The position numbers and the translations under genes were made by a program. Shown here piece after piece: positions 14,982 through 49,136 of a stretch of 64,000 bases of DNA (positions are counted from its first letter, which is position 1; each line of letters opens with the position of its first letter). The DNA is from Candidatus Binatia bacterium (GTDB lineage: Bacteria; Desulfobacterota; Binatia; UBA12015). A model generated the notes under the pieces. The model was given only the letters and a program-made list of their open reading frames with translations. It searched no databases and was not told where the DNA came from. The stretch is taken from assembly GCA_029248525.1 (NCBI GenBank), contig JAQWJE010000057.1:1-64000 (forward strand), written 5' to 3'.

Positions 14982-16607
14982 CTAAGGCTTGGTTCCTGCC
15001 AATGTCCGCAGTCGAAGCGGCAGACGCACGGTAAAGAGGGAACCCTGACCGGGCTCGCTGGTAGCGTCAATTGTTCCACCCAGAAGTTCGACGTACCGTT
15101 CTACGAGGTGCAAGCCCAGCCCGGCACCACCGACTTTTCGGGTCAGCGGGTCGGCACCCTGCCGGAAGGGTTCAAAAACGAAATTTAAAGTATCCGCGGT
15201 CATTCCTTCGCCAGTATCGCGAATCGAAAAGCAGATTCCATCTTGGGTCTCTTCGGCTCTGAGCAGGACAAATCCGTCGGTGGTAAACTTGAAGGCATTG
15301 GAAAGCAGGTTCCGAACGATGACCTCTATCTTTCCCCGGTCGGAAAAAATCAGGGGGAGATCGTCTGAAATCTGCGTTTGGTAGTCGACCCCGGCGGCCG
15401 CGTGCGGGACTGCACCTTCTGCGGCAATCCGCTCGAATAATTGCCGGAGGTCGATCTCTTCGAGGGCCATCGGCATCTCGCCCGAGTCGAGTTGGCTGAG
15501 GTTCAGTGTCTCGTTGATCAACTCAAGCAGGGCGGCACCGCTTCGCTCGATGCGCCGCAGGCTGTCTCGCTGTTCATCGTTCACGCTGCCGAAAGCCTCA
15601 TCGAGCATGAGGTCCGCATAGCCGAGAACTACGTGCAGCGGCGTCCGGAGTTCATGGGACATGGTCGCGACAAACTCGCTCTTGAGCCTGCTGGCAGCGC
15701 CAAGAGCTTTGACGAGATTCGCATTTTCGAGTCCGTAAGCGAGACGTCGCGCGACGGCTCGCGAAAGTCTCAGCTGATGCCGTTCCAGAAGGGATTCATT
15801 GCTGTCTCGAGCGAGGAGAAGGACTCCGAGAACCTGGTTGTCCGTATGAAGCGGAGCGGCGATAAACTGGCCAATTCGCAGGGGCTGCCAGAGAGAGATC
15901 GGCAGAAAGTCCTGATCATTCATGTCGTGGCACATGACGCCACGCTCTTTGCGCATGAGTTCGGCAAAGCTTTGATCCCGTCCCAGGCGGATGCCGCTCA
16001 GAAGCTGACGATCTTCTTTGGTGCCGCCAATGAAGGGCTGGGGTTTGAAGGCGCGTTCGCTTTCCTCCCATAGGAAAAGTGCCGAGATCGTAGCGCGGGC
16101 GGCCTCGTGAAGCATGCCGAGGGCACGTTCGGCCATAGACTCTGTATTGTCGCGCAGGGCAAGGGCTTCGTCGACGGAGAGAAGGGTCCTCGCACGGAGG
16201 CTCCGAATGTGCTCGGCGGTTACGTCCTCCCGGATGAGCAAAATATGGTTGCCGACGGCCCCCGTCGGAAAAAGATGCAGACGAAAATATTTTTGGCCCG
16301 GCAGGCCCGGCACACTGTACTCGAGTTGGAAATCGGAAGGAGGCTGACCCTGCAGCGAAATTTCTTTCAGCGCTGCGGCGAGGGCCAGAGCTTGCTCCTG
16401 ATGATCGAGATGGGAGCGCCAGCGATCAAGGTAGTTTTCGCCACAAACGGCGTCGCCCGGGCGCTTTCCTCCGGAGGCGGCTTCGAGATTTCGCCAGGCG
16501 CGATTGACCTGAACGACAGTCCCTTTGGTGTCGAGGATGGCGATCGCCTGCGGGAGCGCTTCCAGCGCGGCCGCCGAAAGATCGATACTTTTCGATTCGG
16601 TCGTCAC
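14982..16607 (-). CDS. PAS-GAF sensor histidine kinase, no membrane segment
   Basis: This 541-aa cytoplasmic sensor kinase starts at a GTG at 16607 that overlaps the Nudix stop (GTGA). A longer in-frame reading upstream is antisense-like and not protein-like. A PAS domain spans about residues 10-130 and a GAF domain 145-295. The HisKA box SHELRTPLH carries the phosphoacceptor His318. The ATPase domain has NLLSNAFKF (433-441), DTGEGM (464-469) and GGAGLGL (493-499). No transmembrane segment is evident, so it should sense an intracellular or diffusible signal. No response regulator lies nearby, so it is an orphan kinase. Coupling to a Nudix hydrolase hints at a link to nucleotide-sugar or redox metabolism, but this is inference. 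Confidence 0.92.
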   Translation of the reverse strand: MTTESKSIDLSAAALEALPQAIAILDTKGTVVQVNRAWRNLEAASGGKRPGDAVCGENYLDRWRSHLDHQEQALALAAALKEISLQGQPPSDFQLEYSVPGLPGQKYFRLHLFPTGAVGNHILLIREDVTAEHIRSLRARTLLSVDEALALRDNTESMAERALGMLHEAARATISALFLWEESERAFKPQPFIGGTKEDRQLLSGIRLGRDQSFAELMRKERGVMCHDMNDQDFLPISLWQPLRIGQFIAAPLHTDNQVLGVLLLARDSNESLLERHQLRLSRAVARRLAYGLENANLVKALGAASRLKSEFVATMSHELRTPLHVVLGYADLMLDEAFGSVNDEQRDSLRRIERSGAALLELINETLNLSQLDSGEMPMALEEIDLRQLFERIAAEGAVPHAAAGVDYQTQISDDLPLIFSDRGKIEVIVRNLLSNAFKFTTDGFVLLRAEETQDGICFSIRDTGEGMTADTLNFVFEPFRQGADPLTRKVGGAGLGLHLVERYVELLGGTIDATSEPGQGSLFTVRLPLRLRTLAGTKP

Positions 16608-17185
16608 GGGTTGGATACGCCTCGTTGCAGGCTCAAGTAGTGAAATGCACAAAGAACCAATGCGTGGGAAATTTTCCCGCTTTGAATCAGGTCCGGTATG
16701 CTGCTGAGCGGGGCGAGCAGCACCTCGGTTTCTTCGGTTGTATCGAAATTGGTCGCACCCCGGAGCGTGCAGTCGTGGGCCACGAACATATGGCAGCGAT
16801 TGCCCTGAATGGCAGGATTGGGGTGTGCGATGCCGAGGGGTTCGACCCGAGCCGAATCGTATCCAGTTTCCTCGCGCATTTCCCGGAGTGCGCCATCCCC
16901 GGGTGACGGATCTTCCGGATCGAGCATCCCACCGGGTATTTCCAGTGTGAAGTCCTCGACGCCATGACGAAATTGGCGAATCAGGACGACTTCGCCAGCG
17001 GATGTGAGAGGAACGATATTGACCCAATCTCCGGTCTCGAGAACGAAAAAGTCGTGCCGCTGGCCGGTTCTTGGGGAGCGACTGGTGTTTTTGCGGACGC
17101 CGAAGATGCGATTTTGCGTCAGCTTTTCGGAATCGAGGCGTTGCCAGCGACCGAGTCGCCCGGGTCCTTGATAAATACCGCTCAT
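16604..17185 (-). CDS. Nudix hydrolase, ADP-ribose pyrophosphatase-like
   Basis: This 193-aa protein resembles ADP-sugar pyrophosphatases. It has the EIPGGM entry to the Nudix box at 82-87 and REMREETGY at 101-109. The box spacing is slightly longer than the common consensus because of a Pro/Gly-rich insert. The expected reaction is hydrolysis of ADP-ribose or another NDP-linked compound. The ATG at 17185 is chosen; longer readings run antisense into the glycosyltransferase gene. Its stop overlaps the histidine kinase GTG. The 102 bp upstream are shared with the divergent glycosyltransferase gene and should hold both promoters. Confidence 0.85.
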   Translation of the reverse strand: MSGIYQGPGRLGRWQRLDSEKLTQNRIFGVRKNTSRSPRTGQRHDFFVLETGDWVNIVPLTSAGEVVLIRQFRHGVEDFTLEIPGGMLDPEDPSPGDGALREMREETGYDSARVEPLGIAHPNPAIQGNRCHMFVAHDCTLRGATNFDTTEETEVLLAPLSSIPDLIQSGKISHALVLCAFHYLSLQRGVSNP

Positions 17186-17287: not shown

Positions 17288-20068
17288 ATGCGTATCGCCA
17301 TGGCAGCACCACTCTACCTCCCCGATTTTCGGGGAGGTGCGATCCAGGTTTGCCGGAGTTTGTCCGCTCAGTTTCGTGAGGCAGGCCATTCCGTCTCGCT
17401 CCTGGTTGGTCGCGCCACACCTGAAGTGCCCGTTGGGGAGGTGCAGCGAGAGATCTGGGAAGGCTCGCCGCTTTGGCGGATCAATCTCGGAAGCGGGCTC
17501 GAGGCATTCTCGGCCCAGGGATATCGAAATCTCGAGGCCGAGCCTGCTTTTGCCGATTTCCTTGCCGAGGTTCGGCCCGATATTTTGCATGTGCATGGCC
17601 TTCAGGGATTGGGCATCGGACTTTTACAGGCAGCCTCGGTGGCAGGAGTCCCGATCGTGGTTACGTTGCATGATTGGTGGTGGTTTTGTCCATGCCTGTT
17701 CGGATTGTCTCCATCGGATCGAGTCTGTTCGATGCCGCTACGGCCCGAGGGCTGCTCCGGTTGCGATTCGTATGACTTCAAGGCTCGCCGTGAGGCTCTT
17801 GCAGCCGCCCTTCCTCTCGTGGATCGCTTTCTTGTGCCGTCAAATTTTCTCTACGACAGTTTTCTGGCGCAGGGTTTCCCGGAGGAGCGCCTCGAAATTT
17901 CGCCCAATGGCACGGCTCGACCGAGCAGCGACGCACCTGAAAAGGAGTCGCTCCCGGGAATTCTTCGGATCGGTTTTTTTGGCGGGGCGGGGAATCGAGA
18001 AAAGGGTCTGGCCGATTTGGGCGCTGCGATCCGCGAGCTTCCGATCGGGCGTTTTCAGTTTCTTCTCTACGGCGTTCCTCGCACGGACTTGGAGTTGCAC
18101 CGTAGTGATGTCGTGCATCCACCTGCATTCGAACCAGTGGATCTTGATACCGTTTGCGCTGGTGTCGATGTTCTCGTCGTACCCTCGCGGATGCGCGAAT
18201 CTTTTTCGCTGGTCACGCGAGAGGCCATGGTGCGAGGCGTGCCGGTCGTTGCGAGTGAGTGTGGAGGACCGGAAGAAGCAATCGTCGACGGAAGCAATGG
18301 ATTTCGATTCCCCATCGGGGACTCGAGGGCGCTGGCCGCAATTCTGCAACGGCTGGCAGATGATCGACCCCTTGAGGCCTCTCTGGCAGAGGGGGCAAGC
18401 CGCTCTGCAGTTGAATTTCCCTCGATTGAAGATCAGGTGCGTCAAACCACCAGCCTCTACGATGAGGTGTTGCGCGAGAACTCTTGTGGCCGGTTTTCGC
18501 CGAAGAAACCGGCGCTGGAGGGCCTCCGCATCCTTTTCCTGAGCGCTTCTGATGGCGCACCGTTGCGCTACCGAGTGCATCATGCGGCCGAATCGCTGGG
18601 ATTGATCGGGGTTTCTTCTCGGGTTCTGCACTATGCCGCACCTGAGGTCGACGAAGAGATGCGACACACGGATCTCATGATTCTGTTTCGGACGCCCTAT
18701 GATGCGGCCGTGGAGCGGTTGCTGCGAAAAGCGCGTAAATATTATTTGCCGGTCGTCTTTTCTGCGGATGATCTGATTTTTCATCCTGAGTGGGTTCTGG
18801 ATGCCCCGGCACTCGAACATGAAGACGGAGCGCTCGCGCAGGGCTTTCGAGAGTCGGCAATGGCGTGCGCTCGAACGGCCAGTTTTTGCGACGCCATTAT
18901 CGGTTCTTCGCCCGGTTTGATCGCAGCCGCAGAGGATCTCGGGTTACCGGGATTTCTGTTGCGGAACTCCACGGGCTCTCTGCTGGAAGACATTTCTCAA
19001 CGCTGCTCGACCGGCGCCGGGGACGCCCCGCGGATGGGATACTTTTCGGGCACAGATACCCATGACGGCGATTTGGCCGCCATCGCGCCGGCTTTGGCGG
19101 GGGCTATGAAGGAAATTCCGGCGCTGGGCCTGACGCTGGGTGGCCCCCTGCGGATACCTCCGATCTTGAGGCCGTTGGAGCACCGGATCGATCAGGTACC
19201 GCTGCTGGGTTGGAGTGAACTTCCGGCGGAACTCGCCCGGATGCAGGTGAATCTCGCACCTTTGGAAACTTCCGGACGGTTCAATGCCTCCAAGAGTGAT
19301 GTGAAGTTTCTCGAGGCGGCTTTGGTGGGTGTGCCCACGGTGGCGAGTCCGAGTCCTGAATTCCTCCGGGGGACTCTGGACGGGCGGCTTGCTCGACTGG
19401 CAGATACGCTCCCCGCATGGGAGGAAACTGTTGTGGAGCTTGTGCGTTCGCCGCTACGTCGGCGCTGTTTGGGAGACTCGGCCAGGGCCGCGGTTTTGCG
19501 CGCGCGGGGTCCGTCGAGTGTTGCAACTGATTGGGGGGATTCCCTGCGCGAGATTCTGACAGGAGTTCCGCGTTCGGCTCTCGTTCCATCTGGAGCCCCG
19601 ACGGGTCCGGACTATTCTCGGGTGGCGCTGGAGCCCGCTGGCCTCGTCACCGATATCGCAAATTTGTCTGCGATTTCCGGCGAGCCTCTTGGCGACCAAT
19701 ACCCATTGGTTCAGGAAATCAGCTGCCGTCTAAAGCGACCGCGCCGGATTGACGTCCGTTTTGGCACATACGGTCGAAAGAATTCTCATCAAATTCACAT
19801 CGCGGTCTTCGACCCCACGGGGCAAGTCGTTGGCCAGCGTTCGGTTGCGGCCGAGTTGCTGGTCGATCGCGCCTTCGTGGACGTGCCGTTGGCCGAGGCA
19901 GATTTCGGCGGGGAGTTGCGGGTCGAGATTCGCAGCCAGGGTGCCGGGCCGGGTAATGAAGTACTGGTTTGGCGCTCCCCCCAACCTGCCGCAAGCCTGC
20001 GCGTTGGTGATCGACAGGTTTCGGGTGATTCCATCTCCTTTCGTGTGTTCTCCGAGGTGGACTCGTGA
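17288..20068 (+). CDS. Tandem two-domain glycosyltransferase with C-terminal beta-rich domain
   Basis: This 926-aa protein contains two GT-B glycosyltransferase units in one chain. Residues 1-395 form a family 4-type transferase: a glycine-rich N-terminal loop (DFRGGA), HVHG near 100, and the nucleotide-sugar block REAMVRGVPVVAS near 315. Residues about 410-770 form a second GT-B domain with RYRVHHAA near its start and KFLEAALVGVPTVAS near 675. Residues about 775-926 form a beta-rich module also seen in the next gene. It has no signal or membrane span and is likely cytoplasmic, acting on lipid-linked sugars or surface polysaccharide. Its stop overlaps the GTG start of the next glycosyltransferase. 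The donor and acceptor are unknown. Confidence 0.88.
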   Translation: MRIAMAAPLYLPDFRGGAIQVCRSLSAQFREAGHSVSLLVGRATPEVPVGEVQREIWEGSPLWRINLGSGLEAFSAQGYRNLEAEPAFADFLAEVRPDILHVHGLQGLGIGLLQAASVAGVPIVVTLHDWWWFCPCLFGLSPSDRVCSMPLRPEGCSGCDSYDFKARREALAAALPLVDRFLVPSNFLYDSFLAQGFPEERLEISPNGTARPSSDAPEKESLPGILRIGFFGGAGNREKGLADLGAAIRELPIGRFQFLLYGVPRTDLELHRSDVVHPPAFEPVDLDTVCAGVDVLVVPSRMRESFSLVTREAMVRGVPVVASECGGPEEAIVDGSNGFRFPIGDSRALAAILQRLADDRPLEASLAEGASRSAVEFPSIEDQVRQTTSLYDEVLRENSCGRFSPKKPALEGLRILFLSASDGAPLRYRVHHAAESLGLIGVSSRVLHYAAPEVDEEMRHTDLMILFRTPYDAAVERLLRKARKYYLPVVFSADDLIFHPEWVLDAPALEHEDGALAQGFRESAMACARTASFCDAIIGSSPGLIAAAEDLGLPGFLLRNSTGSLLEDISQRCSTGAGDAPRMGYFSGTDTHDGDLAAIAPALAGAMKEIPALGLTLGGPLRIPPILRPLEHRIDQVPLLGWSELPAELARMQVNLAPLETSGRFNASKSDVKFLEAALVGVPTVASPSPEFLRGTLDGRLARLADTLPAWEETVVELVRSPLRRRCLGDSARAAVLRARGPSSVATDWGDSLREILTGVPRSALVPSGAPTGPDYSRVALEPAGLVTDIANLSAISGEPLGDQYPLVQEISCRLKRPRRIDVRFGTYGRKNSHQIHIAVFDPTGQVVGQRSVAAELLVDRAFVDVPLAEADFGGELRVEIRSQGAGPGNEVLVWRSPQPAASLRVGDRQVSGDSISFRVFSEVDS

Positions 20069-23000
20069 GAACACTTTTCCTGAGTTGGGACCGACTTGGT
20101 GGCTCGATGGCGGGATCGGCTATCCGCTCGCTGGAGCTGGCGCAGGCTGTTGCGCGTCGTGGGGTCGAGGTTGGTATTGCTGCTCCCTCCGGGAGTGAAT
20201 TGCCGGCCGGATCTGATTTGCAGTTGATCCAATTCGAACAAGGCTCAGCTCCAGCTCCAGCTGTCGCTGAGGCCGACTCGGTTTTTGTACCGGGGCGCGT
20301 TGAGTTGATGCATGCGATCCGGAAGCCGATGGCGGTCGATCTATACGATCCGTTTGTTCTTTCGAATCTGGATTTCTTTGGCGAAGATTTCAATCGGGGC
20401 GGAGGGCGCGCTCTGCTGGCGTTACGCTGGTTGCAGCATCATTTGGTCAACGGAGACTTCTTTCTCTGCGCGAGCGAGACACAGCGTCATTTCTGGCTCG
20501 GGATGCTGGCCGCAGCCGGTCGATTGAATCGCGCAAACTACGAGGGCGATCCTCTTTTGCAGCGCCTGATGGGTATTGTCCCCTTCGGTCTTGCGTCCGA
20601 GAAGCCATCGGCCGAGGGGTCTGTCCTGCGTGGGGTGATTCCCGGGATCGGGGCATCGGATCGTATTGTGCTGTGGGCAGGTGGCATGTGGAACTGGGTC
20701 GATCCCGTCACTTTGGTCCGCGCCGGAGCGAAATTGCGTGAGACCCGCCCTGACGTGAAAATCGTACTTCTCGGAGCGACTCATCCGAACCCGGATATCG
20801 GGGAGATGCAGGTGGCACGCGAGGCAAGAGACCTGGCGCGCGATCTGGATCCACGCGGTGAGGGATTCTTTTTTCTCGATTGGGTGCCCTATGATCGCCG
20901 CCACCTATATCTGCTCGAAAGTGATGTGGGGGTGAGCCTGCATCGGCCGGGGATAGAGTCGGAATTCGCCTTTCGGACTCGCCTGCTGGATTACCTCTGG
21001 TGCGACTTGCCGATGGTGTTGACCGAAGGCGACGAGCTGGCCACAAAGCTCGAAGGAGCCGGGCTGGGACTTGCTGTGGGTGCCGGTGATGTCGCGGGAG
21101 TCGCGGCTGCCGTCGATCAGATCCTGGAAATGCCGCGGACGGCCGAGCGTCAGCAAGCCTTTCAAGAGCAACGATCAGCGCTGGCTTGGGATCGGGTGGC
21201 CGAGCCCTTGGTGGAATTTTGTCAGGCGCCGCGCCGCGCTCCGGATCGAGAAGGGAATGCATGGGTCGCCGGTATTTCTCGCGCGGATGTACCGCGCAAG
21301 GAAGCCGCGATGATCGCCGACGAATTCAACGGCACCGCGCGCTCAATCTCTTCGCCGCTCGGAGCCGACCATAGCTGCCGGCAGAAGTTCGCCGCTGCGT
21401 TTGACGGCTTGGCGCAGGTCGACGTTCTGCTCGGTCGGTCGGGTGCGCCGGAAGACGGCAACCTTGTCTTCGAACTCCGCCATCAAGGGGGTTTGGTGGC
21501 ACGTGTTCTCATGTCGGTGCGGGATCTGACGGAGGAGGGTTGGCAACGCTTTGAATTCCGACCGATCCCGCATTCGCGGGGGCGCGAGTTTGAATTCTCG
21601 ATTCGTGTGGCCGCGCATGACGGAGAAATTCTATGTGAGAGGGTCTGGGTCCAACATACAGATTATGGTGATGTGACCGCCGGCTCAGGCTGCCAGCCGG
21701 CTTTTATCGCGCGCTATCTGATTGATGGTGTCGCTCCCGAGACCGGGGTTCCGGAAGACGAATTCCTTTTTCTCCACAATACCAGCCTGCCGCTTTTGCC
21801 CGGAGACGAACTTTCCGAGAGTAAAAATTATTTCGCTTCCGGCGACGCGACCGACTTCGAGGGGATTCAGGCAGCGGTTGCTGAAGTGGCCTTGCGCGCG
21901 ACTCGCGCCGAGGAGCGGGTGATCGGATTGGAATCACGCCTTGCCTCGGTCGCGCAGCACCGGGCCCATGTCGAAGTGCGCTACCGGGGATTGCTGTTTC
22001 CGATTTATTATGAGCTCCTGCGCTTCTGTCGCCTCGGCGCACATGGTCTTCGTGGCGCGATGCAGGGGATCCTGCTGACGCTTCTGGTTCTGATGGGCGT
22101 GCCTCTTGCGATTCTGGTCGGGATCGGAATCTTGCTGACCGACCTGATTTCCCGTGGCCGTTCGATTTCTTCGGACCCCTCAGATGCCGCGCGCGTGCGG
22201 TCCGGAGATCCGGTTTCGGTGGTGATCCCGACCTGGAACGGACAGGAGTTGCTGGCGATGAGCCTGCCGCCGCTGGCCGCCGCCATCGAAGAGCACGGCC
22301 ACCCGGATGACGAAGTCCTCGTTGTCGATAACGCGAGTGAAGACGAGACGCTGGATTACCTGGCCTCCCTGCAGGAGAAAATGCCGTTCCTGCGTGTCGT
22401 ACGCATGGAGCGCAACGAGGGTTTTGCAGGTGCCACCAATGAAGGGGCCCGTCAGGCACGCAACCCGGCTCTGGTCCTTCTGAACAATGATATGGTCGTG
22501 GAGCCCGATTTCCTGCAGCCTCTTCTGGACGCTTTTGATCAGGAGCCCGGCGTTTTCGGTGTTTCCAGCCAGATTGATTTTATCGACCCGGGCAAACCGC
22601 GATGGGAGACGGGCAAGGTTCACGCCGAGTTTGCGTGGGGGTGTGTGAAGCTCTTTCATCTGGACCGCTTCGAAGAAGATCTTCATTACCCTATTTTCTT
22701 CGCAGGGGGTGGAGCATCGGCCTACGATCGCAGCCGCTTTCTTCAGTTGGGTGGTTTTGATGAGGCGGTGTTTTCGCCGGTCTATATCGAGGACGTGGAT
22801 CTTGGCTACCGTGCCTGGCGGCGAGGGTGGCCGTCGGTGCTGGCACCTGCCTCGCGCGTCCATCATAAACATCGGGGTACCACCCGACGTCGCTGGAGCG
22901 AGGCGACGATCCACTCGTTCTTTGTCAAAAACCTCGCGGCATTGGTGTGGAAGAACATTTCCTCCTGGAGGCTTTTGCTACCCCATCTGGCAGGCTTGAC

Positions 23001-24393
23001 GATTCTGCCAACGCGAATCCTTGCCGAAATCGGCCCGGCAGCGGCCTTCGCTGCGGTGCGTGGGCTTTACCGGCAGGTGCCTGCCGTTCTGAAGGCGCGG
23101 TTTCGGGAAAATGCGGTATGCCGCCCGCTCTCGGATCGCGAGGTTTTCAAATTGTCGCGCTCGCGTGCTGCCTACCGTGGGCGGTTTCACCCCGAAGGGG
23201 AAGGGGGGCGTCCCCAGATATTGGTGATTTCGCCATACAGTCCCGTACCGGCGGTGCATGGCGGTGCGGTGCGGATCTCCAACCTGCTGCGCGAAATGGG
23301 CAAGCGGGCGGATGTGACGGTCCTTTCGCTGGCCGATACCGAAGCTGAGACCGACCCACGCAGTCTGGCAGAATTGGCGAAACTCTGTCGGGAGGCGCTG
23401 ATCGTTCCTCGCGACACGGGCAGCAGTCGAGGCGGCTGGTTGGCTCCGACCAAATTGCGCGGCTTTCACTCGGCACGGCTCGCGGAGGAAATCCGGGAGT
23501 GCATGGAGCGCCGCTCGTTTAGCGTCGTTCAGGTGGAATACACACATATGGCTCATTTCCTTCCGCCACCGACCGAAGGCGTTCTGCGGGTATTGGTCGA
23601 ACACGATGTCAGTTTCGTTGCTCTGGAGCGCGCGCGCCGGCTGCCCGGCTCGCTGTTGCGGAAGGTCGGCCTGTGGATCGATGGGTTGCGAACTTTTCGT
23701 CAGGAAATTCTTGCGGTTGAAAGTGCCGATCGCGCGATCACGATGAGCGAAAACGATCGCGATGTTCTCGCGAAATTCCTTCCTTCGGAGAATCTGCGCG
23801 TCGTTCCCAACGGGGTAGACTGTGCGGCTTTCCCGTTTCGCCCTCTGAGCGAAACCAATCCGGTAATTCTCTTTGTCGGATTCTTCCGTCATGAACCAAA
23901 TGTCGAGGCGGCCCTCTACTTCGCGCGGGAAGTCCTGCCCCTGATCCATCAAACGCTACCGAACGCACGGTTTCGAATCGTCGGTGCCTATCCGCCGCCC
24001 GAAGTGCTGGATCTTCCATCTGTCGATGAACGAGTTGAGGTCGCCGGTTGGGTGGATTCAACCGCTTGCGAGTACCAAGCCGCCTCGGTGTTTGTGGCGC
24101 CGGTTTTGCGCGGCTCGGGGACCCGCTTGAAGATTCTCGAAGCGATGGCCAGCGGCGCAGCCGTGGTCTCGACCACGATCGGCGCTGAGGGTATTCTGGC
24201 CGGAAGTGGTGAAATCCGAGTGGCCGACGATCCGGATACTTTCGCAGAGGCGGTTTTGGAAACACTCGGAAACTCGACAATGCGCGAGGCGCAGGTGAGA
24301 GCAGCCCGGCAGTTGGTCGAATCCCGATACGATTGGGGCGCGATTGGTCGCGAGCTTTTTGCGGCTTATGGATTGGAGGAAGACGTTGAGTAG
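20065..24393 (+). CDS. Giant three-domain glycosyltransferase with membrane helices
   Basis: This 1442-aa protein appears to hold three transferase units. Residues 1-385 resemble a GT4-like GT-B domain; 417-545 form a beta-rich module like that of the preceding gene; 600-650 is a probable coiled coil; 660-697 has a hydrophobic hairpin or long membrane helix. Residues about 715-960 are a GT2 domain with SVVIPTWNG, LNND as the metal-binding block and EDVDLGYRAWRRG. Residues 1045-1442 are a second GT4 domain with a glycine-rich loop (HGGAVR) and GSGTRLKILEAMASG. The GTG start overlaps the preceding stop. Such fusions build branched surface glycans, and this one would tether three activities at the membrane. 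The product is unknown. Confidence 0.9.
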   Translation: MRTLFLSWDRLGGSMAGSAIRSLELAQAVARRGVEVGIAAPSGSELPAGSDLQLIQFEQGSAPAPAVAEADSVFVPGRVELMHAIRKPMAVDLYDPFVLSNLDFFGEDFNRGGGRALLALRWLQHHLVNGDFFLCASETQRHFWLGMLAAAGRLNRANYEGDPLLQRLMGIVPFGLASEKPSAEGSVLRGVIPGIGASDRIVLWAGGMWNWVDPVTLVRAGAKLRETRPDVKIVLLGATHPNPDIGEMQVAREARDLARDLDPRGEGFFFLDWVPYDRRHLYLLESDVGVSLHRPGIESEFAFRTRLLDYLWCDLPMVLTEGDELATKLEGAGLGLAVGAGDVAGVAAAVDQILEMPRTAERQQAFQEQRSALAWDRVAEPLVEFCQAPRRAPDREGNAWVAGISRADVPRKEAAMIADEFNGTARSISSPLGADHSCRQKFAAAFDGLAQVDVLLGRSGAPEDGNLVFELRHQGGLVARVLMSVRDLTEEGWQRFEFRPIPHSRGREFEFSIRVAAHDGEILCERVWVQHTDYGDVTAGSGCQPAFIARYLIDGVAPETGVPEDEFLFLHNTSLPLLPGDELSESKNYFASGDATDFEGIQAAVAEVALRATRAEERVIGLESRLASVAQHRAHVEVRYRGLLFPIYYELLRFCRLGAHGLRGAMQGILLTLLVLMGVPLAILVGIGILLTDLISRGRSISSDPSDAARVRSGDPVSVVIPTWNGQELLAMSLPPLAAAIEEHGHPDDEVLVVDNASEDETLDYLASLQEKMPFLRVVRMERNEGFAGATNEGARQARNPALVLLNNDMVVEPDFLQPLLDAFDQEPGVFGVSSQIDFIDPGKPRWETGKVHAEFAWGCVKLFHLDRFEEDLHYPIFFAGGGASAYDRSRFLQLGGFDEAVFSPVYIEDVDLGYRAWRRGWPSVLAPASRVHHKHRGTTRRRWSEATIHSFFVKNLAALVWKNISSWRLLLPHLAGLTILPTRILAEIGPAAAFAAVRGLYRQVPAVLKARFRENAVCRPLSDREVFKLSRSRAAYRGRFHPEGEGGRPQILVISPYSPVPAVHGGAVRISNLLREMGKRADVTVLSLADTEAETDPRSLAELAKLCREALIVPRDTGSSRGGWLAPTKLRGFHSARLAEEIRECMERRSFSVVQVEYTHMAHFLPPPTEGVLRVLVEHDVSFVALERARRLPGSLLRKVGLWIDGLRTFRQEILAVESADRAITMSENDRDVLAKFLPSENLRVVPNGVDCAAFPFRPLSETNPVILFVGFFRHEPNVEAALYFAREVLPLIHQTLPNARFRIVGAYPPPEVLDLPSVDERVEVAGWVDSTACEYQAASVFVAPVLRGSGTRLKILEAMASGAAVVSTTIGAEGILAGSGEIRVADDPDTFAEAVLETLGNSTMREAQVRAARQLVESRYDWGAIGRELFAAYGLEEDVE

Positions 24394-24973
24394 CTTGATG
24401 ACATTCCTTCGTCCGATTCCGTTGTCCGGAGTCCAGCGGGTTTTGATCGTACAGACGGGATTGGGGAAGCGTCTGCCGAGACTGGTTGACCGTTGCCGCG
24501 GTTTGTTCAGTGATGCTCGTTTGGAAGTTCTTCTGCGTGAGGGGGATGCCTCCCTGCGCGACGAGATCGATGTGGCCGAGACGCGTGTCGCTCGATGGGA
24601 AGAGCGATATTCCTTGCTGCCCGATCTGCGCCGTACTTCCTATGATGTTGTGGTTTTGCAGGTGGGGGGCGCGACAAGCGAGCTTCGTCTTCTGCCATTT
24701 TTGCTGCGGACCCGTTCGATTGTGGCTTTCGACGAGGTGCTCGAGGCCCGGGCCGTGACCGTCTTCCGGTTGCCCGGTCTGATCGCAAATTTAGGCCTTT
24801 TGGGCGAAGACCGGACTCGTTTCGAGATGTTGCGCCGGGCCATCGCAAAGCTGACTGTGGTGCCGATCGTGAGCCTGCTGTCGATTTTCTTTCTTCTCGG
24901 CTCGAATGCCTGGCTGCGCTTGCGGCCTTTATGGCGTCGCCCCACGCGGCGGGTCGAGGGAGCGCGGGAGTGA
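24386..24973 (+). CDS. Half-size Rossmann-like protein with C-terminal membrane helix
   Basis: This 195-aa product starts at a TTG at 24386, five bases after a GGAGGA ribosome binding site, and overlaps the preceding gene by eight bases. The first 130 residues (VLIVQTGLG near the start, later YDVVVLQVGG) resemble the N-terminal half of a GT-B or heptosyltransferase-like fold. The C-terminal nucleotide-sugar half is missing and a hydrophobic helix follows near residues 165-185. It may be a truncated transferase that became a partner of the large glycosyltransferases, or an unrelated membrane protein. I do not recognise a family with confidence. Confidence 0.6.
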   Translation: MSSLMTFLRPIPLSGVQRVLIVQTGLGKRLPRLVDRCRGLFSDARLEVLLREGDASLRDEIDVAETRVARWEERYSLLPDLRRTSYDVVVLQVGGATSELRLLPFLLRTRSIVAFDEVLEARAVTVFRLPGLIANLGLLGEDRTRFEMLRRAIAKLTVVPIVSLLSIFFLLGSNAWLRLRPLWRRPTRRVEGARE

Positions 24974-28574: not shown

Positions 28575-30602
28575 TCAGGGCGCTGGTGCCACCCTGATGG
28601 ATTGAATCGCAAGGGTGAGTGATGGGTCGGATTGCAGGGCAAGCCGGGCGGTGTAGCGTCCGGGGGCCTCGGGAAGAGCGAGTCTGAGAGCAGTATGTCC
28701 ATTTCCTCCTCGGGCGACAGCGACTGGTAAAAAGCCGACCAGTAGATGCTCGGCGACCAATCGACCCCGAAAGTCGAAGAATTCCACCCTCAAGGGAGTT
28801 TCGGTCTCGGGGGCAGGGTGGCGAAAGTTGGACTGCCCCCGAACCTGAAGCTCGAAAACCAGCAGGTCCTCCGGGCCGGTCAGGTTGAGGGTTGTCGTCG
28901 AGGGTTGATTCGACTCGAGAACGTCAAAGTTCTCGGCAACGGGAAAATTGCCCTGCAGTCCAAGGAGAAGGTGGCCGGAACTTTCCGCTCGCGTGGTCAG
29001 TCGCCCGCCGGCACCTCTGCTGCGGGCAAGATTTCGGAGAAATTGCTCATAGGCCTCTGCGGAGAGATCGTGTTTGTGGATCAGGATGTTGCCGAAGCCG
29101 AGAGTGGCCAACGCTTCGGCCCCCGCGGGTTGCGCGAGTTCGGCGGCGAAAGAGGCGAGGGGTTTGGCTGGATCCCGACCGTCGATGCTGCCTGTGGTCG
29201 TTGCGCGACGATGCCATGCTGCGGTGAGGTGGCGGTGCGCGGCGCGATCGGGGATTCCGGTCGGGAGATCGAGGATCGCCCCCGGTTGCACCTGTTGCAG
29301 AAGCTGGGCTTCTTCGAGCGGGGGGCTCAGGAAGCTGACCCGGCGCGCCTGAGCCGGAGCGATAGAGATGGGATTGAGCGGGTAGAGAAGGTTGCCGAGG
29401 ATCAGGCCGGTGAAAAAAATCGCTCCCCAGATCCTTTGGGTGATCGGGGAATGCACTCGCTCGAGGATGGCCAGGGAACCGAAGGCGGCGAGCAGGCACC
29501 AGCCAAAGGGGAGCAGGAGCCGCAGGCTCCAGCGCAAGGAATTTGCTTCCGGAGCGCGTCCCTCCAGCCAGCTGCCCGGCAGTTCTTGCCGCAGGCCGTC
29601 GCCAATTGAAATTTCATCGGCAAGAGCGAGGGGCAGCACGAGGAGCGCTACGAATATCAGCAGGCGGGGGTCGCCGAGTCGGCCCTTGTAGGCGCCGCGG
29701 GTCCTGTCCATGATGCCGACGGCGGCCAGGCAGGCAATGATCAGGCCGGGACCGGCCAGGCCCCCAGGCATGAACGCCCAAAGTTCATCGGCCTGGAGGG
29801 ACGGGTAAACCAGGGTTCCGGGGAGTACGAGTGCGGGGCCGAAGGCTGCTCGGAGAGCGATCAGAAGTGTCAAGCAAGCGGATAGTCTCCCCAAGGTGCT
29901 TCGTTCGTGGGGCCGCTGATGCAGGACGAGGAGTGCGCTCACGACGATCGCAGAGACCGCAATCGGCAGAGGAGCGAGGGCAAGGGGAAGGGTTAGTCCG
30001 GCCAGCACGAAGAAAGCGGGCCCTGCTTTCTCCCTGACGACCCATCCGGTGGCCAGAACGGTCGCGGGCAGAAGGGGACTGAGGAGGAGGAAGGTGGAGG
30101 TCGGATCGAGCAGCACCGCCGGTGGCAGGGCGTATCCAAGCCCGGCAATACCAGCAGCGATCGGATTGCCCGTGCAGATCCGGCAGAGCAGAAACATGGA
30201 GATGAATGTGAGCCAGGGAATGAGGACGGCCGCCATATTCCAGGCCAGAACGGGCTCTCCGAGAGCGACTGCGGGCGCGGCGATCAAGGAAGCAATGGGG
30301 CCCGGGGTATCCGCCGGAGCGCGGTTGACTCGCGGATACCCGGGCCAGGCGGCCGGTTGATTGCCTGGGGACAGGATTCGTTCGGCGCCTGATGCGAGCA
30401 GGCTGAACTGCCGGATTTCGCTGCCGGGTTCTCCGTTTCCGGTGAGGATGACACTCGTGGGGGCACGCATTGACGGGCTTGCGAGCGCCAGAAACAGGGC
30501 GAGCGCCGCGAGGAGAGAGCCCCTCCCCGGTAGAAAGGATCGAAGCCCGCCCGGGTGGCCGAGGATTCCGGCGGGCGGTGAGTTTTTCTTGCGAGGACTC
30601 AT
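28575..30602 (-). CDS. Large polytopic membrane protein with C-terminal beta-rich domain
   Basis: I do not recognise a specific family. The 675-aa protein has a short basic N-terminus and about ten to twelve transmembrane helices up to residue 430. An extracytoplasmic domain of about 240 residues follows, with alternating strand patterns (ENFDVLE, then LVFELQVRG, then RVEFFDFRGRLV). The layout resembles membrane glycosyltransferases of the GT-C or YfhO type, but the first periplasmic loop lacks a clear acidic catalytic pair. The C-terminal module is reminiscent of the beta-rich modules in the 926- and 1442-aa glycosyltransferases. It is divergent from the sulfotransferase gene across 60 bp, so the two may be controlled together. 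Confidence 0.65.
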   Translation of the reverse strand: MSPRKKNSPPAGILGHPGGLRSFLPGRGSLLAALALFLALASPSMRAPTSVILTGNGEPGSEIRQFSLLASGAERILSPGNQPAAWPGYPRVNRAPADTPGPIASLIAAPAVALGEPVLAWNMAAVLIPWLTFISMFLLCRICTGNPIAAGIAGLGYALPPAVLLDPTSTFLLLSPLLPATVLATGWVVREKAGPAFFVLAGLTLPLALAPLPIAVSAIVVSALLVLHQRPHERSTLGRLSACLTLLIALRAAFGPALVLPGTLVYPSLQADELWAFMPGGLAGPGLIIACLAAVGIMDRTRGAYKGRLGDPRLLIFVALLVLPLALADEISIGDGLRQELPGSWLEGRAPEANSLRWSLRLLLPFGWCLLAAFGSLAILERVHSPITQRIWGAIFFTGLILGNLLYPLNPISIAPAQARRVSFLSPPLEEAQLLQQVQPGAILDLPTGIPDRAAHRHLTAAWHRRATTTGSIDGRDPAKPLASFAAELAQPAGAEALATLGFGNILIHKHDLSAEAYEQFLRNLARSRGAGGRLTTRAESSGHLLLGLQGNFPVAENFDVLESNQPSTTTLNLTGPEDLLVFELQVRGQSNFRHPAPETETPLRVEFFDFRGRLVAEHLLVGFLPVAVARGGNGHTALRLALPEAPGRYTARLALQSDPSLTLAIQSIRVAPAP

Positions 30603-30662: not shown

Positions 30663-31673
30663 GTGCAAAATCGCTTGATTTTTCTGGTGGGTGCCCCTCG
30701 ATCAGGGACGACTCTCCTGGCCCGCATCCTCAGCGCGCATTCCGAGGTCGCCAGCCGAGCAGAACCCCATCTGATCACGCCTCTGGCACATCTGGGTTAT
30801 TTTGGGAGTGTCCAAAAGGCCCCCTACGATCCCTTCAACGTCCAGCAGGCGATTCAGGAATTGGTATCGGACCTCCCGGGCGGAGAAGAAGACTACCTCA
30901 CGGCGCTCCGAGCGTATACCGATTCCCTGTACGGCGCGATCCTCGAGCAAACTCCCGACAAGAAGTATTTTCTCGACAAGACTCCAGCCAACTCTCTGGT
31001 TCTTCCGTTTTTGACCAAGCTCTATCCGCAAGCCGGGTATATTGTCCTGACCCGACATCCCCTCGCGATCCTGTCCTCGTATGTGAACTCGTTTTTTGAT
31101 GGGGACTACCAAGTCGCGATGGAGCATAACCCGATCTTGCAGCGGTACGTGCCGGCGCTGGCTCGGATGTTGCGCGAAAAGCCTGTGCCCTTTATCCCGA
31201 TTCGCTACGAGGATTTCGTAGCCGATCCGGAAGCCGGTTTTCGCAAGATCTGTGAGCACCTCGATATTGCGTTTGAGTCGGCGGCTATCAACTATCAGGA
31301 GCAATCCGAGGAATTTCAGGGTCTCGGTGATCCGATCGGCGTCGGCCAACACGACCGCCCCGTCACCTCCTCGATCAAGCGTTGGGCCGTCGAGATCGCC
31401 ACCAATCCGCAATCGCTGGCGCAGGTCCTGTCGATCGTTGATCAACTCGAAGACGAGGATCTCGAGATTCTGGGTTATCCCCGGGCACAGATTCTGGACG
31501 ACCTGAACGAGGCGGCAAGCAGTGGCACCAAGCCGGCCAAGCGGAGTCGTCCGCTGCGCTACACCCTCGAGCGGAAACTCCTGATCGGTCTGCGGCGCAA
31601 TATTCACAAAAACGTTCTGGGTCGGGTTCTCAAGAAGCTCCAATTTGCCCTCGATGTCATCCTGCGGGACTAG
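30663..31673 (+). CDS. PAPS-dependent sulfotransferase family protein
   Basis: This 336-aa protein has the PAPS 5'-phosphosulfate loop GAPRSGTTLL at residues 10-19 and the 3'-phosphate block LTRHPLAILSSY near 128-139. It should transfer sulfate from PAPS to a hydroxyl or amine on a carbohydrate, lipid or small molecule. The C-terminal ~40 residues are basic and may touch a membrane or anionic substrate. The start is a GTG at 30663, and the sulfate loop follows almost at once. It is next to a large membrane protein and about 6 kb from the glycosyltransferase block, so sulfation of a surface glycan is a reasonable guess. Confidence 0.85.
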   Translation: MQNRLIFLVGAPRSGTTLLARILSAHSEVASRAEPHLITPLAHLGYFGSVQKAPYDPFNVQQAIQELVSDLPGGEEDYLTALRAYTDSLYGAILEQTPDKKYFLDKTPANSLVLPFLTKLYPQAGYIVLTRHPLAILSSYVNSFFDGDYQVAMEHNPILQRYVPALARMLREKPVPFIPIRYEDFVADPEAGFRKICEHLDIAFESAAINYQEQSEEFQGLGDPIGVGQHDRPVTSSIKRWAVEIATNPQSLAQVLSIVDQLEDEDLEILGYPRAQILDDLNEAASSGTKPAKRSRPLRYTLERKLLIGLRRNIHKNVLGRVLKKLQFALDVILRD

Positions 31674-35766: not shown

Positions 35767-36164
35767 CCAACCGCGGGCAGGCTGCTGATTGCCGATCGCA
35801 GTCCTCCCCCGAAACGACATGGCAAGTCGCAGATTGTCCTGTCCTGTGAGAACCACACCTGTCACCCCTCGAGGACGGTCGCGGATCGAGACCGGCGCTT
35901 GCGTCCGCCGGGCCTACCGTAAAATCAGGGAATGACTCTGGCATGAGGGTTGCATTCGTTTCGGTCCAGTCAAAAGTGCAATCGCCATGATGCCTGCAGG
36001 CAGCTGCCTCCGTATCCGGGATTTTCATTTCCCCCGGATGCGACGATCGGCGCCGCTGCGGATTTTTCTGCAGCCCTGAATCCCCGTCTCCTTTGCCGGG
36101 CAGGGTTTCGGATTGCATCACCTGGCCATCCGGAAATTCAGGGCGAGGTCGGCACGGAAAGAGT
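35767..36164. other. Non-coding region before the chitinase gene
   Basis: No gene is supported in this 398-bp stretch. It holds a strong sigma-54-type promoter match at 35939-35954, which leaves a leader of about 200 bases before the chitinase start. The leader has several short GC-rich inverted repeats, but I recognise no riboswitch class. No terminator after ybeY is evident. Confidence 0.6.
35939..35954 (+). promoter_or_regulatory. Sigma-54 (-24/-12) promoter match
   Basis: TGGCATGAGGGTTGCA fits the consensus TGGCAY-N5-TTGCW, with invariant GG and GC dinucleotides at the correct spacing. It faces the chitinase gene. If used, transcription would begin about 12 bases downstream and need an enhancer-binding activator. 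Confidence 0.65.
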
Positions 36165-38033
36165 ATGGAAACTATGAAACGATATAAGCCTGAGAATAAA
36201 TTCAGCCGCTATCTGCGGATCATTACTTTGGGAATTGCAGTTCTTGCAGGGGGGGCGATTCCGGCAGAAGCCGCAAGCGAATACCAGCCTGGCGCGATCT
36301 ATGTCGGAGGCGAGGAGGTTTGTCTGGAAGGTGACCTGTTCACGACGAAATGGTGGGCGGGAGCATCGGACAAGCCTTCGGACGTTGATGTGGTCGATCA
36401 GGCCTGGGAGACGCCGTGGCAGCGCCTTGCCGTGAATTCGGACGTTTGCAACGGCGATGGTTCGGCGAATCAGGGCCCCGCGAATGAACCGGTGGCCGAA
36501 GAGGGTCCGGCGGGTGGAGTCGATGAATTCGCGGGTCCGGAAGCTGACCCTGAAGATATCATCGTCCCCGAGGATCCGACGCCGGCACTCCCTGTCGGAG
36601 GCGACGAACCCACAACCGATCCCTCGGGCTGTCCTTCCTGGAACGGTGATACGGTCTATCTCGGGGGAGTGACGGTATCTTATGCTGGAGAAAACTGGGA
36701 GGCGCAGTGGTGGACGCGAGGAGATACGCCGGGAACAACCGGACCTTGGGGCGTTTGGCGCCGATCGGAAAACCCGACGGAGTCGTCGTGTGCTTCCGAA
36801 GCCGGACCTATGCCAGTTGTGAACCCTGTTGCGGAGGACCCCCCGGAGGAAAATTCCGCACCGGATCTGAATTCGGATCCCGTCGTGGATTCGGATCCTC
36901 TCGTGCCGGCATCAACGACGGTCGCTTTGAGCGAGCTTCTGGAAACCGAAGTGGCTCTGACCAGTGGTTCCTTGATGGCGGAGGTGAAGTTCTCCATTCA
37001 GACACGAGACAATGACATCGTGGAATCTGTCACGCCGCAGGATCCGGGAAATCCGGAGAACGTAAAGCGTGTTGAATCGATCGTGGATGCGAGTCGTTGG
37101 GCCTATTTCTTCCCCCGACGAGCGCCCGAGTACACGTATACGAACTTTCTCCGCGCAATCGCCAAATTCCCGGCGTTCTGTGGCACCTATGCCGATGGCC
37201 GCGATTCGGACGCCATCTGCCGGAAAGCTCTTGCCACAATGTTTGCTCACTTCACACAGGAAACGGGCGGACACACCATCGCCTGGCCCGAGGCCCAGTG
37301 GCGTCAGGGATTGGTCTACGTGCGGGAGTTGGGTTGGAGTGAGGATGCCCCGAACGGATATGGAATCTGTGACCCCGCCAGTTGGCAGGGCGATACATGG
37401 CCATGTGCGGTATTCCCGCAAGGCCATCCGGCCAGCGATCAATACAAAAGCTATTTCGGCCGTGGCGCCAAGCAGCTGAGCTACAATTACAACTACGGTC
37501 CGTTCTCCGAGGCGATGTTCGGCGATGTGACGGTCCTGTTGGAGCAACCGAATCTGGTTGCGGACACCTGGTTGAATCTGGCGAGTGCGATCTTCTTCTA
37601 CGTCTACCCGCAGCCGCCCAAGCCCTCGATGCTGCATGCCCTCGACGGTACCTGGGTTCCCAATGCGCATGACCTTGCCGGCGGCCTCGAGCCGGGGTTC
37701 GGTGTCACGACTCAGATTATCAACGGTGGCGTAGAATGCGGGGGACCGACAGAGCATGGTCAGTCGGTCAATCGAATCGAATATTATCGAAACTTTGCCC
37801 GCGAGCTTCAGGTTCCATTGGCGGCGAGTGAAGTTCTCGGTTGTGCGAATATGCAACGATTCGACACGCAGGGCTCCGGAGCACTGGCGATCAATTGGGA
37901 GCAGGACTGGACGAGCCCCAATGCCTGTCAGCTAGTTAGCTACCAGACGCCATTCTCCGCGTTCCTCGATGGAGATTATGTACGCTGCGTCGAGAGCTTC
38001 TTCGATGTCACCATCCTGGACGACCTCGATTAG
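36165..38033 (+). CDS. Secreted GH19 chitinase with two chitin-binding modules
   Basis: This 622-aa exported enzyme has a signal peptide ending near AEAAS (about residue 37). Two small aromatic-rich modules follow that resemble CBM5/12 chitin-binding domains (YQPGAIYVGGEE, then TKWWA; and WNGDTVYLGGV, then AQWWTRG), joined by acidic Pro-rich linkers. The C-terminal ~300 residues form a GH19 domain: FAHFTQETGGH with catalytic Glu366, YFGRGAKQLSYNYNYG, and QIINGGVECG. It hydrolyses chitin or related beta-1,4 N-acetylglucosamine polymers by inversion. The ATG at 36165 has GGAAAGAG ahead; an ATG at 36174 is an alternative. A terminator follows at once, so it is a single-gene unit under the sigma-54-like promoter. 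Confidence 0.88.
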   Translation: METMKRYKPENKFSRYLRIITLGIAVLAGGAIPAEAASEYQPGAIYVGGEEVCLEGDLFTTKWWAGASDKPSDVDVVDQAWETPWQRLAVNSDVCNGDGSANQGPANEPVAEEGPAGGVDEFAGPEADPEDIIVPEDPTPALPVGGDEPTTDPSGCPSWNGDTVYLGGVTVSYAGENWEAQWWTRGDTPGTTGPWGVWRRSENPTESSCASEAGPMPVVNPVAEDPPEENSAPDLNSDPVVDSDPLVPASTTVALSELLETEVALTSGSLMAEVKFSIQTRDNDIVESVTPQDPGNPENVKRVESIVDASRWAYFFPRRAPEYTYTNFLRAIAKFPAFCGTYADGRDSDAICRKALATMFAHFTQETGGHTIAWPEAQWRQGLVYVRELGWSEDAPNGYGICDPASWQGDTWPCAVFPQGHPASDQYKSYFGRGAKQLSYNYNYGPFSEAMFGDVTVLLEQPNLVADTWLNLASAIFFYVYPQPPKPSMLHALDGTWVPNAHDLAGGLEPGFGVTTQIINGGVECGGPTEHGQSVNRIEYYRNFARELQVPLAASEVLGCANMQRFDTQGSGALAINWEQDWTSPNACQLVSYQTPFSAFLDGDYVRCVESFFDVTILDDLD

Positions 38034-38044
38034 GGAAAACAGGG

Positions 38045-38080
38045 AACCGCCCGGGCAACCAGCCCGGGCGGTTCGGTTTT
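38045..38080 (+). terminator. Intrinsic terminator after the chitinase gene
   Basis: AACCGCCCGGGC (38045-38056) pairs fully with GCCCGGGCGGTT (38062-38073) around a five-base loop and is followed by a T-rich run. It is only 12 bases after the chitinase stop and lies between convergent genes. Confidence 0.88.
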
Positions 38081-38093
38081 CGAGCCTTGTGTC

Positions 38094-39305
38094 TCAGGTA
38101 TCGAAACGGACTTGAAGTTTGTCCGGGGAGCGAAAGGCGACTCCGACCATATGGGACTCTTCTTGTTCGTCGAGGCGCAGTCCGGGTAATCTCTCGAGCA
38201 AGCGCGCCACGGCACGCTGCGCTTCCATCCGCGCGAGATGGGTGCCGAGGCAGAAATGTGCACCGAAACCGAAGGCCAGATGTTCGCTGGTGTTTGCGCG
38301 TTGCAGGTCCAGCCGATCACCATCGGGGAATTTCTGCTCATCTCGATTGGCCGACCCGATGGCCGCCATGATCAAAAGCCCTGGCGGGATTGGCACACCT
38401 GCGATTTCGACTTCGCGGGTCGTCTCGCGGCTGACGTATTGTACCGGGGATTCCCAGCGCAAAACTTCCTCGAGGATGGGAGCCATGCTCTCGGGGCGCG
38501 ACCGCGCGGCAGCCATCGCCTCGGGGTGGGTCAGCAGGGCGTGGAGAATGGTCCCGGTGAATCGGTAGGTGGTTTCCGCGCCTGCAGGAAGCAGCAGTCG
38601 GAGAAAACTCAAAATTTCTTCTTCGAGGAGGGCTTCATCATCGATCCGCGCATGTGCGAGTGTCGACAGTAGATCGTTCTTCGGCTCTTTGCGCCGTTCT
38701 TCGACGATAGGTTTGAGGTGGTCCACGATATGTTGTGCTGCTGCGAAGCCGGCTTCGGGGTCGTCGTAAACACTGATGAGTTGGAGTGCCCACGTATGAA
38801 ACTGATGGTAGTCCTCGATGGGAACTCCGATCAGGTCGGCGATGACGCGAATGGGGAAGGTATAGGTAAATTGCTTGACCAGGTCGGCTTGACCATCGTT
38901 TACGAATTCGTCGATTAAATGGTCGATGGAGGAATCAATCACCGACGATGCTGTCTCGCGGATAGCACGCGGTGAGAAGCTCGGCGTGATCAGGCGGCGC
39001 TGGCGCAAATGCTGCTTTCCGTCCATTTCGATGATCGTGCTGCCCATGACCAGGCCGATCCCCTTCGCGTTGGCGATCGACGAGAAGGTTTCTGCATCGC
39101 GCAGGACACGGTTCACATCCTCATAGCGAGTGACCAGCCACGTATCTCCGAGCTCACTCTGAATCTTTCTTACGGGCTCGTGCACACGCATATGGGCATA
39201 GACGCGGTGTACATCGCGAACCGGGCTCATCATGCCACCCTTGAAGAGCTCACTTGGGCGCGGGGGCTTTGCCTGGCCCCCTTCTGGTTCGTTGGTTGTC
39301 GCCAT
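38094..39305 (-). CDS. Cytochrome P450
   Basis: This 403-aa soluble bacterial P450 has the heme-binding loop FGFGAHFCLGTH with the axial Cys at about residue 352, the ExxR pair in EEVLRW near 280-283 and the I-helix oxygen-activation block AGAETT near 241-246. The ATG at 39305 is preferred over a GTG 12 bases upstream because a GAGGTGA ribosome binding site then has normal spacing. Ferredoxin and reductase partners are not adjacent. Similar P450s hydroxylate fatty acids, terpenes or sterol-like compounds; the substrate here is unknown. Confidence 0.94.
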   Translation of the reverse strand: MATTNEPEGGQAKPPRPSELFKGGMMSPVRDVHRVYAHMRVHEPVRKIQSELGDTWLVTRYEDVNRVLRDAETFSSIANAKGIGLVMGSTIIEMDGKQHLRQRRLITPSFSPRAIRETASSVIDSSIDHLIDEFVNDGQADLVKQFTYTFPIRVIADLIGVPIEDYHQFHTWALQLISVYDDPEAGFAAAQHIVDHLKPIVEERRKEPKNDLLSTLAHARIDDEALLEEEILSFLRLLLPAGAETTYRFTGTILHALLTHPEAMAAARSRPESMAPILEEVLRWESPVQYVSRETTREVEIAGVPIPPGLLIMAAIGSANRDEQKFPDGDRLDLQRANTSEHLAFGFGAHFCLGTHLARMEAQRAVARLLERLPGLRLDEQEESHMVGVAFRSPDKLQVRFDT

Positions 39306-39456
39306 CAGAATCTTCACCTCGCAGGTCGATCGATTGATTTACCAATCGTCCCCCACTGACGTTGACGAAGCTGGCCTCCCGGGTCAAGCGGCAAGGCCTG
39401 ACCAATCGGTCGGGCCAAGAGTTCCCAGAGATAGCGATGATGGGTAGAGTCGCTTT

Positions 39457-47999: not shown

Positions 48000-48000
48000 A

Positions 48001-49113: not shown

Positions 49114-49136
49114 GAGTCTCGCGAAACCGAAGCGGC

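Follow-up and report, generated by a model that had tools for sequence, protein, structure and literature searches.

Coupled multi-domain glycosyltransferase genes in a Candidatus Binatia bacterium: a candidate assembly system for a conserved envelope glycan

Gene layout and domain content of the locus

A 64,000-nucleotide (nt) stretch of contig JAQWJE010000057.1 (GenBank assembly GCA_029248525.1, Candidatus Binatia bacterium; positions 1 to 64,000 of the forward strand), called the window below, carried two coupled genes for glycosyltransferase (GT) proteins of 926 and 1442 amino acids (aa), followed by a gene for a small membrane protein (Table 1). The two GT genes meet in the junction gactcGTGAgaac, where they overlap by 4 nt. 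A chance open reading frame (ORF) or frame artefact was ruled out by the full-length orthologues of the 1442-aa protein in other genomes. The small gene most likely begins at TTG 24386, behind a GGAGG site and with an 8-nt overlap with the stop of the 1442-aa gene, while ATG 24398 is an alternative. The start at 24344 given by the ORF tool was rejected, as it lies upstream of the GGAGG site.

Pfam analysis of the 926-aa protein revealed the N- and C-domains of a GT4 enzyme at aa 16–208 and 227–359 (GTA), together with a weak second GT-B match, Glyco_trans_1_2, at aa 608–739 (GTB). GTB could be aligned to GTA over its full length with an hhalign probability of 99.4%, and the GTA model was superposed on tll1590 with a root-mean-square deviation (rmsd) of 2.8 over 366 residues. 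In the 1442-aa protein, Pfam detected a GT2 domain (aa 718–858) and a GT4 domain (GTD, aa 1066–1402), while the first GT4 domain (GTC) was weak and appeared as a second GT4 stretch. The GTC model matched BshA with an rmsd of 2.9 over 339 residues, which indicated a GT-B fold. GTD was similar to TIGR03087 over nearly its full length with 162.1 bits, a score below the family cut-off of 316.65. The double Rossmann fold of GT-B enzymes was thus recognised in all four GT4-type domains: in GTA and GTC by structure, in GTB by profile, and in GTD by Pfam and alignment to PimA. The structure models were built from 11–14 sequences; that of the 1442-aa protein, from 14, had a mean predicted local distance difference test score (pLDDT) of 70.7 and was better in the GTC domain.

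Between its beta-rich and GT2 domains, the 1442-aa protein carries a linker which varied from 146 to 239 aa among orthologues and was the only strongly length-variable part of the protein. Two helices (aa 598–639 and 645–697) were predicted here with moderate confidence from the model, no coiled-coil predictor being used, and the hydrophobic stretch at aa 669–689 is flanked by positive charges on both sides. A single membrane crossing would strand the GT domains of one side in the periplasm, and GT domains that use cytoplasmic nucleotide sugars lie on both sides; the stretch is therefore likely to be a re-entrant or in-plane helix. The one long helix of the model (aa 645–697) fits either topology.

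The small protein of 195 aa matched no known Pfam family, the GT9 family (PF01075) included. Its profile weakly matched five proteins in other genomes, of which four were examined; three were GT9 enzymes by Pfam, and in the fourth the match fell on the same N-terminal stretch. Alignment to these four by hhalign gave 95.3% over 76 N-terminal columns against 0.1% for the reversed control, a figure that is optimistic since the four were chosen because they matched. The protein is without the C-terminal half of a GT9 enzyme, and its candidacy as a complete GT was not supported, as it aligned only to the N-terminal part of GT9.

The arrangement put forward in the original prediction was borne out. 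Two GT-B domains in the 926-aa protein were confirmed by Pfam and hhalign, and GT4-like, GT2 and GT4 domains around a membrane segment in the 1442-aa protein by Pfam, fold match and hydropathy. The GTGA junction was present, and the small Rossmann-like membrane protein noted downstream had a GT9-like N-terminal half and a hydrophobic C-terminal segment.

Table 1. Positions of the genes and domains at the glycosyltransferase locus within the window
Feature	Position	Strand	Basis
NUDIX gene, divergently oriented, syntenic neighbour	16604..17185	-	Orthologues 59–62% identical in six f1 loci
926-aa protein, GT4(A)-GT4(B)-beta domain	17288..20068	+	ORF; orthologues 35–43% identical; AlphaFold model, mean pLDDT 82
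GTA, canonical GT4/GT-B, aa 1–400	17288..18487	+	Pfam; tll1590 Z 36.6, MshA Z 36.2; EX7E E304/E312 invariant
GTB, second GT4-like domain, aa 408–765	18509..19582	+	PF13524, E 1.6e-4; hhalign; KSxxKxxE
Beta-rich domain bS1, aa 780–922	19625..20053	+	DSSP strands in model; hhalign to bS2 99.1%
GTGA start/stop overlap of the 926-aa and 1442-aa genes	20065..20068	+	Sequence; 4 nt in 8/8 f1 loci
1442-aa protein, GT4(C)-beta domain-helical linker/hydrophobic segment-GT2-GT4(D)	20065..24393	+	ORF; full-length orthologues 51–57% identical
GTC, GT-B domain, aa 1–390	20065..21234	+	BshA Z 31.5; signature E298...R304-T-R306..D309, also in distant homologues
Beta-rich domain bS2, aa 408–560	21286..21744	+	hhalign to bS1 99.1%; genome match 170.6 bits; lower-confidence model
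Long-helix linker and hydrophobic segment, aa 598–697 (hydrophobic core aa 669–689)	21856..22155	+	Model; hydropathy; lengths
GT2 domain, aa 713–1040	22201..23184	+	Pfam 1.9e-24; chondroitin synthase PDB alignment; NND809, ED909-910
GTD, GT4 domain, aa 1045–1440	23197..24384	+	Pfam 1.8e-35; TIGR03087-like; PimA alignment; GSGTRxKxxE
Small membrane protein, GT9-like N-terminal Rossmann half and C-terminal hydrophobic segment	24386..24973	+	Co-occurrence with 1442-aa gene; hhalign
UXX-star glutaredoxin-like protein, 73 aa	25024..25245	+	f1 orthologues; NCBIfam UXX-star 89.9 bits (cut-off 97)

A shared beta-rich domain and a displaced sixth module

The original prediction had overlooked a pair of homologous beta-rich domains as well as a third partner protein encoded elsewhere in the genome. 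The C-terminal ~145 aa of the 926-aa protein (bS1) were found to be homologous to aa ~408–560 of the 1442-aa protein (bS2). This ~150-aa domain gave no convincing match in Pfam, only weak ones below cut-off (DUF6212, 0.0036), and no sequence match in the PDB; the match lists from structure searches with the models were filled by the GT-B part and left the beta domain unrepresented. The possibility that the beta domain is a Wzt_C-type carbohydrate-binding domain was rejected, since it did not align with the C-termini of the Wzt proteins from this genome.

A profile of the beta domain matched exactly three proteins in this genome, namely the 926-aa protein, the 1442-aa protein and a stand-alone GT4-plus-beta protein (541–560 aa), encoded on a separate contig from the operon (C49:387721-389280; L137:9713-11338) at a locus without other recognised glycan genes. 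Three matches each were also obtained in five other genomes of family f1 and in both genomes of family f6 that were searched, and one, two, four or five in the remaining f1 genomes, several genomes being fragmented; nine genomes of other families gave zero matches. The GTB-like domains of the stand-alone copies formed one clade spanning families f1 and f6 (support 100/98), in which the copy of the window's genome had a long branch and a less certain exact position. The stand-alone gene was located directly upstream of the 926-aa gene in three f1 genomes (G001, G002, G009) and directly upstream of the 1442-aa gene in three f6 genomes (G017, G023, G042), and it usually overlapped the downstream operon gene. 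Because these relatives adjoin the operon elsewhere and form an old separate clade, the working set probably consists of six GT modules on three proteins. The five predicted GT domains are real, but they are probably not the full set, the sixth, GT4-plus-beta module being displaced in this genome. The beta domain thus provides a handle for finding partner proteins, and it was this domain that led to the sixth module.

Catalytic signatures, distribution and conservation

GTA carried an invariant canonical EX7E motif and was the only one of the four GT-B domains to do so; GTB, GTC and GTD were without the first glutamate of this motif, while the second acidic residue was kept. Signatures that were invariant or nearly so could nevertheless be recognised, namely KSxxKxxE in GTB, E-x5-RTR-xx-D in GTC, GSGTRxKxxE in GTD, and NND with ED in the GT2 domain. 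In the latter, NND809 and ED909-910 were invariant across 14 orthologues and the Pfam score lay above the cut-off. The GTC signature was retained in distant homologues, and nearly all stand-alone GTB copies carried KGxxKxxE. Several of the GT-B domains may alternatively be non-catalytic scaffolds or acceptor-binding modules, such that the domains outnumber the sugars added. The missing glutamates would fit this, and tandem pseudo-GT domains occur in other systems. Each domain, on the other hand, had an invariant alternative signature with second acidic and basic residues, the GTC and GTB signatures were common to independent homologues, and positions under relaxed selection would be expected to drift. 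This alternative, which is compatible with other readings, was judged unlikely. The conservation of the signatures argues for function in every GT domain, short of proving transfer. The predicted multi-step synthase had been made to depend on the donor-binding residues of its domains, and a lack of these in several domains was not found at the sequence level.

Among 58 sampled relatives, 18 encoded orthologues with the architecture of the 1442-aa protein, some of these orthologues being fragmented or truncated at the end of a contig. The architecture was confined to two families of one uncultured deltaproteobacterial class; relatives bearing names were mostly Deltaproteobacteria metagenome-assembled genomes (MAGs). 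Strong matches to the small protein came from 17 of 148 genomes of the class, all belonging to these two families, where it co-occurred with the 1442-aa protein apart from fragmented genomes. A search of 297 genomes of the phylum, in which two candidates were scored per genome, revealed no full-length 1442-aa protein beyond the genome's own and only separate GT4 or GT2 homologues. The operon, otherwise seen in deltaproteobacterial MAGs, was also present on a GenBank contig titled Klebsiella pneumoniae (L070), whose organism label is probably wrong.

Gene calls in the related loci were made with a codon-usage script. The 4-nt overlap of the 926-aa and 1442-aa genes was present in all eight f1 loci examined. 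In a distant member of the phylum (G205, L126), a bS1-type beta domain preceded GTC in one chain, and in another genome (G031, L130) a methyltransferase, a bS1-type domain and GTC formed a single chain. Coupled, membrane-linked synthesis by several GTs, as originally proposed, is supported by this overlap, by the beta-GTC fusion in G205 and by the motifs conserved in all five domains. In genomes labelled g5, the small gene had moved to the opposite side of the 926-aa gene and still adjoined it.

Mean identity among five f1 genomes was 66% for the 1442-aa protein and 58% for the 926-aa protein, compared with 72% for ileS and 64% for lspA; conservation of the 1442-aa protein is similar to that of these two neighbouring genes. 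Most f1 loci were syntenic, with the NUDIX gene (a name given from sequence by eye) upstream and UXX-star and lspA downstream. Judged from these sequences, this is a slowly evolving, vertically inherited and presumably glycan-building set. Typical O-antigen and exopolysaccharide (EPS) loci differ between close relatives, and the conservation and synteny of this locus, which are unlike those of such variable loci, are the main reason why a fixed envelope glycan is preferred as its product. They argue for a core-type envelope glycan, not a variable surface polysaccharide.

Among the neighbouring genes, a UXX-star orthologue was found near the operon in seven f1 loci; this gene is a conserved neighbour that probably does not belong to the synthase. 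Further along the window, a Sulfotransferase_3 protein is encoded at 30663-31673, and genes of the PF00884 sulfatase family adjoin the GT operon in two related loci (L075, L079) and occur close to it in a third (L080), hinting at sulfated glycans; the sulfatase neighbours are not universal. The window further encodes a hydrophobic 675-aa protein without Pfam or NCBIfam match (28575-30602), a cytochrome P450 flanked by a GH19 chitinase with CBM5/12 and a GH20 hexosaminidase (36093-41618), and a LuxC acyl-CoA reductase fused to a class-III aminotransferase, beside a LuxE-like acyl-protein synthetase (45567-49185).

Proposed function and known multi-module synthases

The absence of adjacent flippase, polymerase and export genes, as claimed originally, held for the main window ORFs scanned. 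No Wzm/Wzt exporter was found in the window ORFs or the scanned flank genes of orthologous loci. Genes for an initiating transferase, Wzx or Wzy were not seen next to the operon either, in the window or in those orthologous loci that were checked. The genome encodes KdtA and therefore probably makes lipopolysaccharide (LPS) containing 3-deoxy-D-manno-octulosonic acid. Wzt_C proteins were encoded elsewhere in the genome and in every f1 genome tested except G012, the matches in G001 being weak only. At L146:7816-12269 (G000:C48), two Wzm/Wzt-type ATP-binding cassette (ABC) transporters enclose a GT2 gene, an order kept in three other f1 genomes (G002, G005, G009) with 51–63% identity. Five f6 genomes (L087:4226-10806, L088, L089, L090, L091) carried two MsbA-like ABC exporter genes head-to-head with the 926-type gene.

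The Wzm/Wzt-type transporters bear on a polymerase-terminator machine of the type of WbdA/WbdD, WbbB and ORF6-O7, in which GT2 and GTD, close to the membrane, would polymerise a repeat, the linker would serve as a ruler, GTC and a beta domain resembling a carbohydrate-binding module (CBM) would cap the chain from the distal end of the linker, and Wzm/Wzt would export it. The prototypes have a similar order of an N-terminal catalytic module, a CBM-like domain (ORF6-O7), a coiled coil, membrane attachment and C-terminal GT modules (PMC11231755). The length variation confined to the linker, the methyltransferase-bS1-GTC fusion in a relative of the class, and the distribution of Wzt_C proteins and of the double Wzm/Wzt locus are further in its favour. 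The linker is short, however, and its long helices are predicted with modest confidence only; the bS domains could not be aligned to the local Wzt C-terminal domains; the Wzm/Wzt genes do not adjoin the operon and are represented in G001 by weak matches; and housekeeping-like conservation would be unusual for O-polysaccharide polymerases. Such a machine is thus considered rather unlikely.

A repeat unit of an EPS may instead be assembled in the cytoplasm and used by a Wzx/Wzy or XrtA-linked pathway whose genes lie elsewhere. GTD comes closest to TIGR03087, a family of XrtA/PEP-CTERM EPS loci; in G017 the small gene adjoins that of an XrtA polysaccharide deacetylase scoring above cut-off; homologues of GTC and GTD are encoded by individual genes at a Wzx/Wzz locus (L132); and the genome has a GT-rich locus elsewhere (L139) with a putative Wzx recognised by eye. 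This was nevertheless regarded as quite unlikely, considering that the genes for initiation, flipping and polymerisation were not seen next to the operon in any orthologous locus checked, that the deacetylase neighbour is not universal, and that the TIGR03087 score is half its cut-off.

The explanation preferred here, which we hold with about as much belief as doubt, is a membrane-anchored GT complex at the cytoplasmic face that builds a conserved, core-type envelope glycan on a lipid-linked acceptor. Several different sugars would be added in sequence to one acceptor, with GTA and GTB acting from the 926-aa protein, GTC, GT2 and GTD acting from the 1442-aa protein held to the membrane by its hydrophobic helix, and the unlinked sixth GT4-plus-beta protein completing the set. 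The beta domains are likely docking or glycan-holding elements by which the proteins would stay attached to a single growing chain; the small GT9-like membrane protein may be an accessory anchor or an acceptor-presenting subunit. The finished lipid-linked glycan would then cross the inner membrane through a transporter encoded elsewhere.

Several observations weigh against this complex in addition to the missing glutamates. An LPS-core oligosaccharide and a conserved polysaccharide cannot be distinguished by conservation alone. The 926-type gene of family f6 lies on a different contig from the 1442-aa gene, so that the coupling is not universal, and the small protein evolves fast, with a mean identity of 45% among the five f1 genomes. 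The MsbA-like exporters did not reach the cut-off scores, and exporters of this kind are common. A more far-reaching proposal, which is possible but doubtful, is an undescribed core-genome complex in which six GT modules are spread over three beta-domain proteins and make, within one membrane-bound assembly, a structural envelope glycan specific to this lineage. The beta domain would then be a new glycan-handling domain, and the small protein a truncated GT9 turned into a membrane subunit.

The best-studied multi-module GT synthases make variable pathogen antigens. A slowly evolving, vertically inherited set of up to six modules, if the preferred explanation is true, would offer a compact model of how protein architecture imposes GT order, and would indicate an undescribed structural envelope glycan in an uncultured deltaproteobacterial lineage. 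A literature search found nothing on Binatota and glycosyltransferases or on proteins with three GT domains. The concentration of GT modules in a small number of polypeptides is already known as a strategy, as seen in WbdA, WbbB and ORF6-O7 (PMC11231755) and in WsaE (PMC2943079).

WbdA/WbdD, WbbB of K. pneumoniae O12 and ORF6 of O7 resemble the window proteins in that one chain, or two that interact, carry several GT modules with a helical spacer and membrane attachment (PMC11231755). ORF6-O7 also has a CBM-like domain; the beta domains of the window proteins have no detectable relation to the local Wzt_C. In contrast to the ABC-dependent O-polysaccharide synthases, the window set has five to six different GT modules in a core-genome locus, with no adjacent Wzm/Wzt and no proven terminator enzyme. 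WsaE of the Geobacillus S-layer glycan likewise combines two GT domains and another enzyme domain in one chain and is encoded by overlapping genes, but it is described as soluble and has a methyltransferase cap (PMC2943079); the window proteins have no methyltransferase and more GT domains. GTD resembles TIGR03087 (stp1) of the XrtA/PEP-CTERM loci and differs in its sub-cut-off score and its fusion to GT4 and GT2. The small protein is like the N-terminal half of GT9 heptosyltransferases, with a hydrophobic segment replacing the C-terminal half. The chondroitin synthase K4CP and other multi-GT capsule enzymes also carry more than one GT domain per chain, and the window GT2 domain aligned to both K4CP domains; K4CP polymerises a disaccharide with two GT2 domains, whereas here a single GT2 is found among GT4 domains, a membrane segment and beta domains. 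The system differs from known multi-module synthases in how many modules it has and in their mix, in the beta domain that its proteins share, in its small GT9-like subunit and in behaving as part of the core genome.

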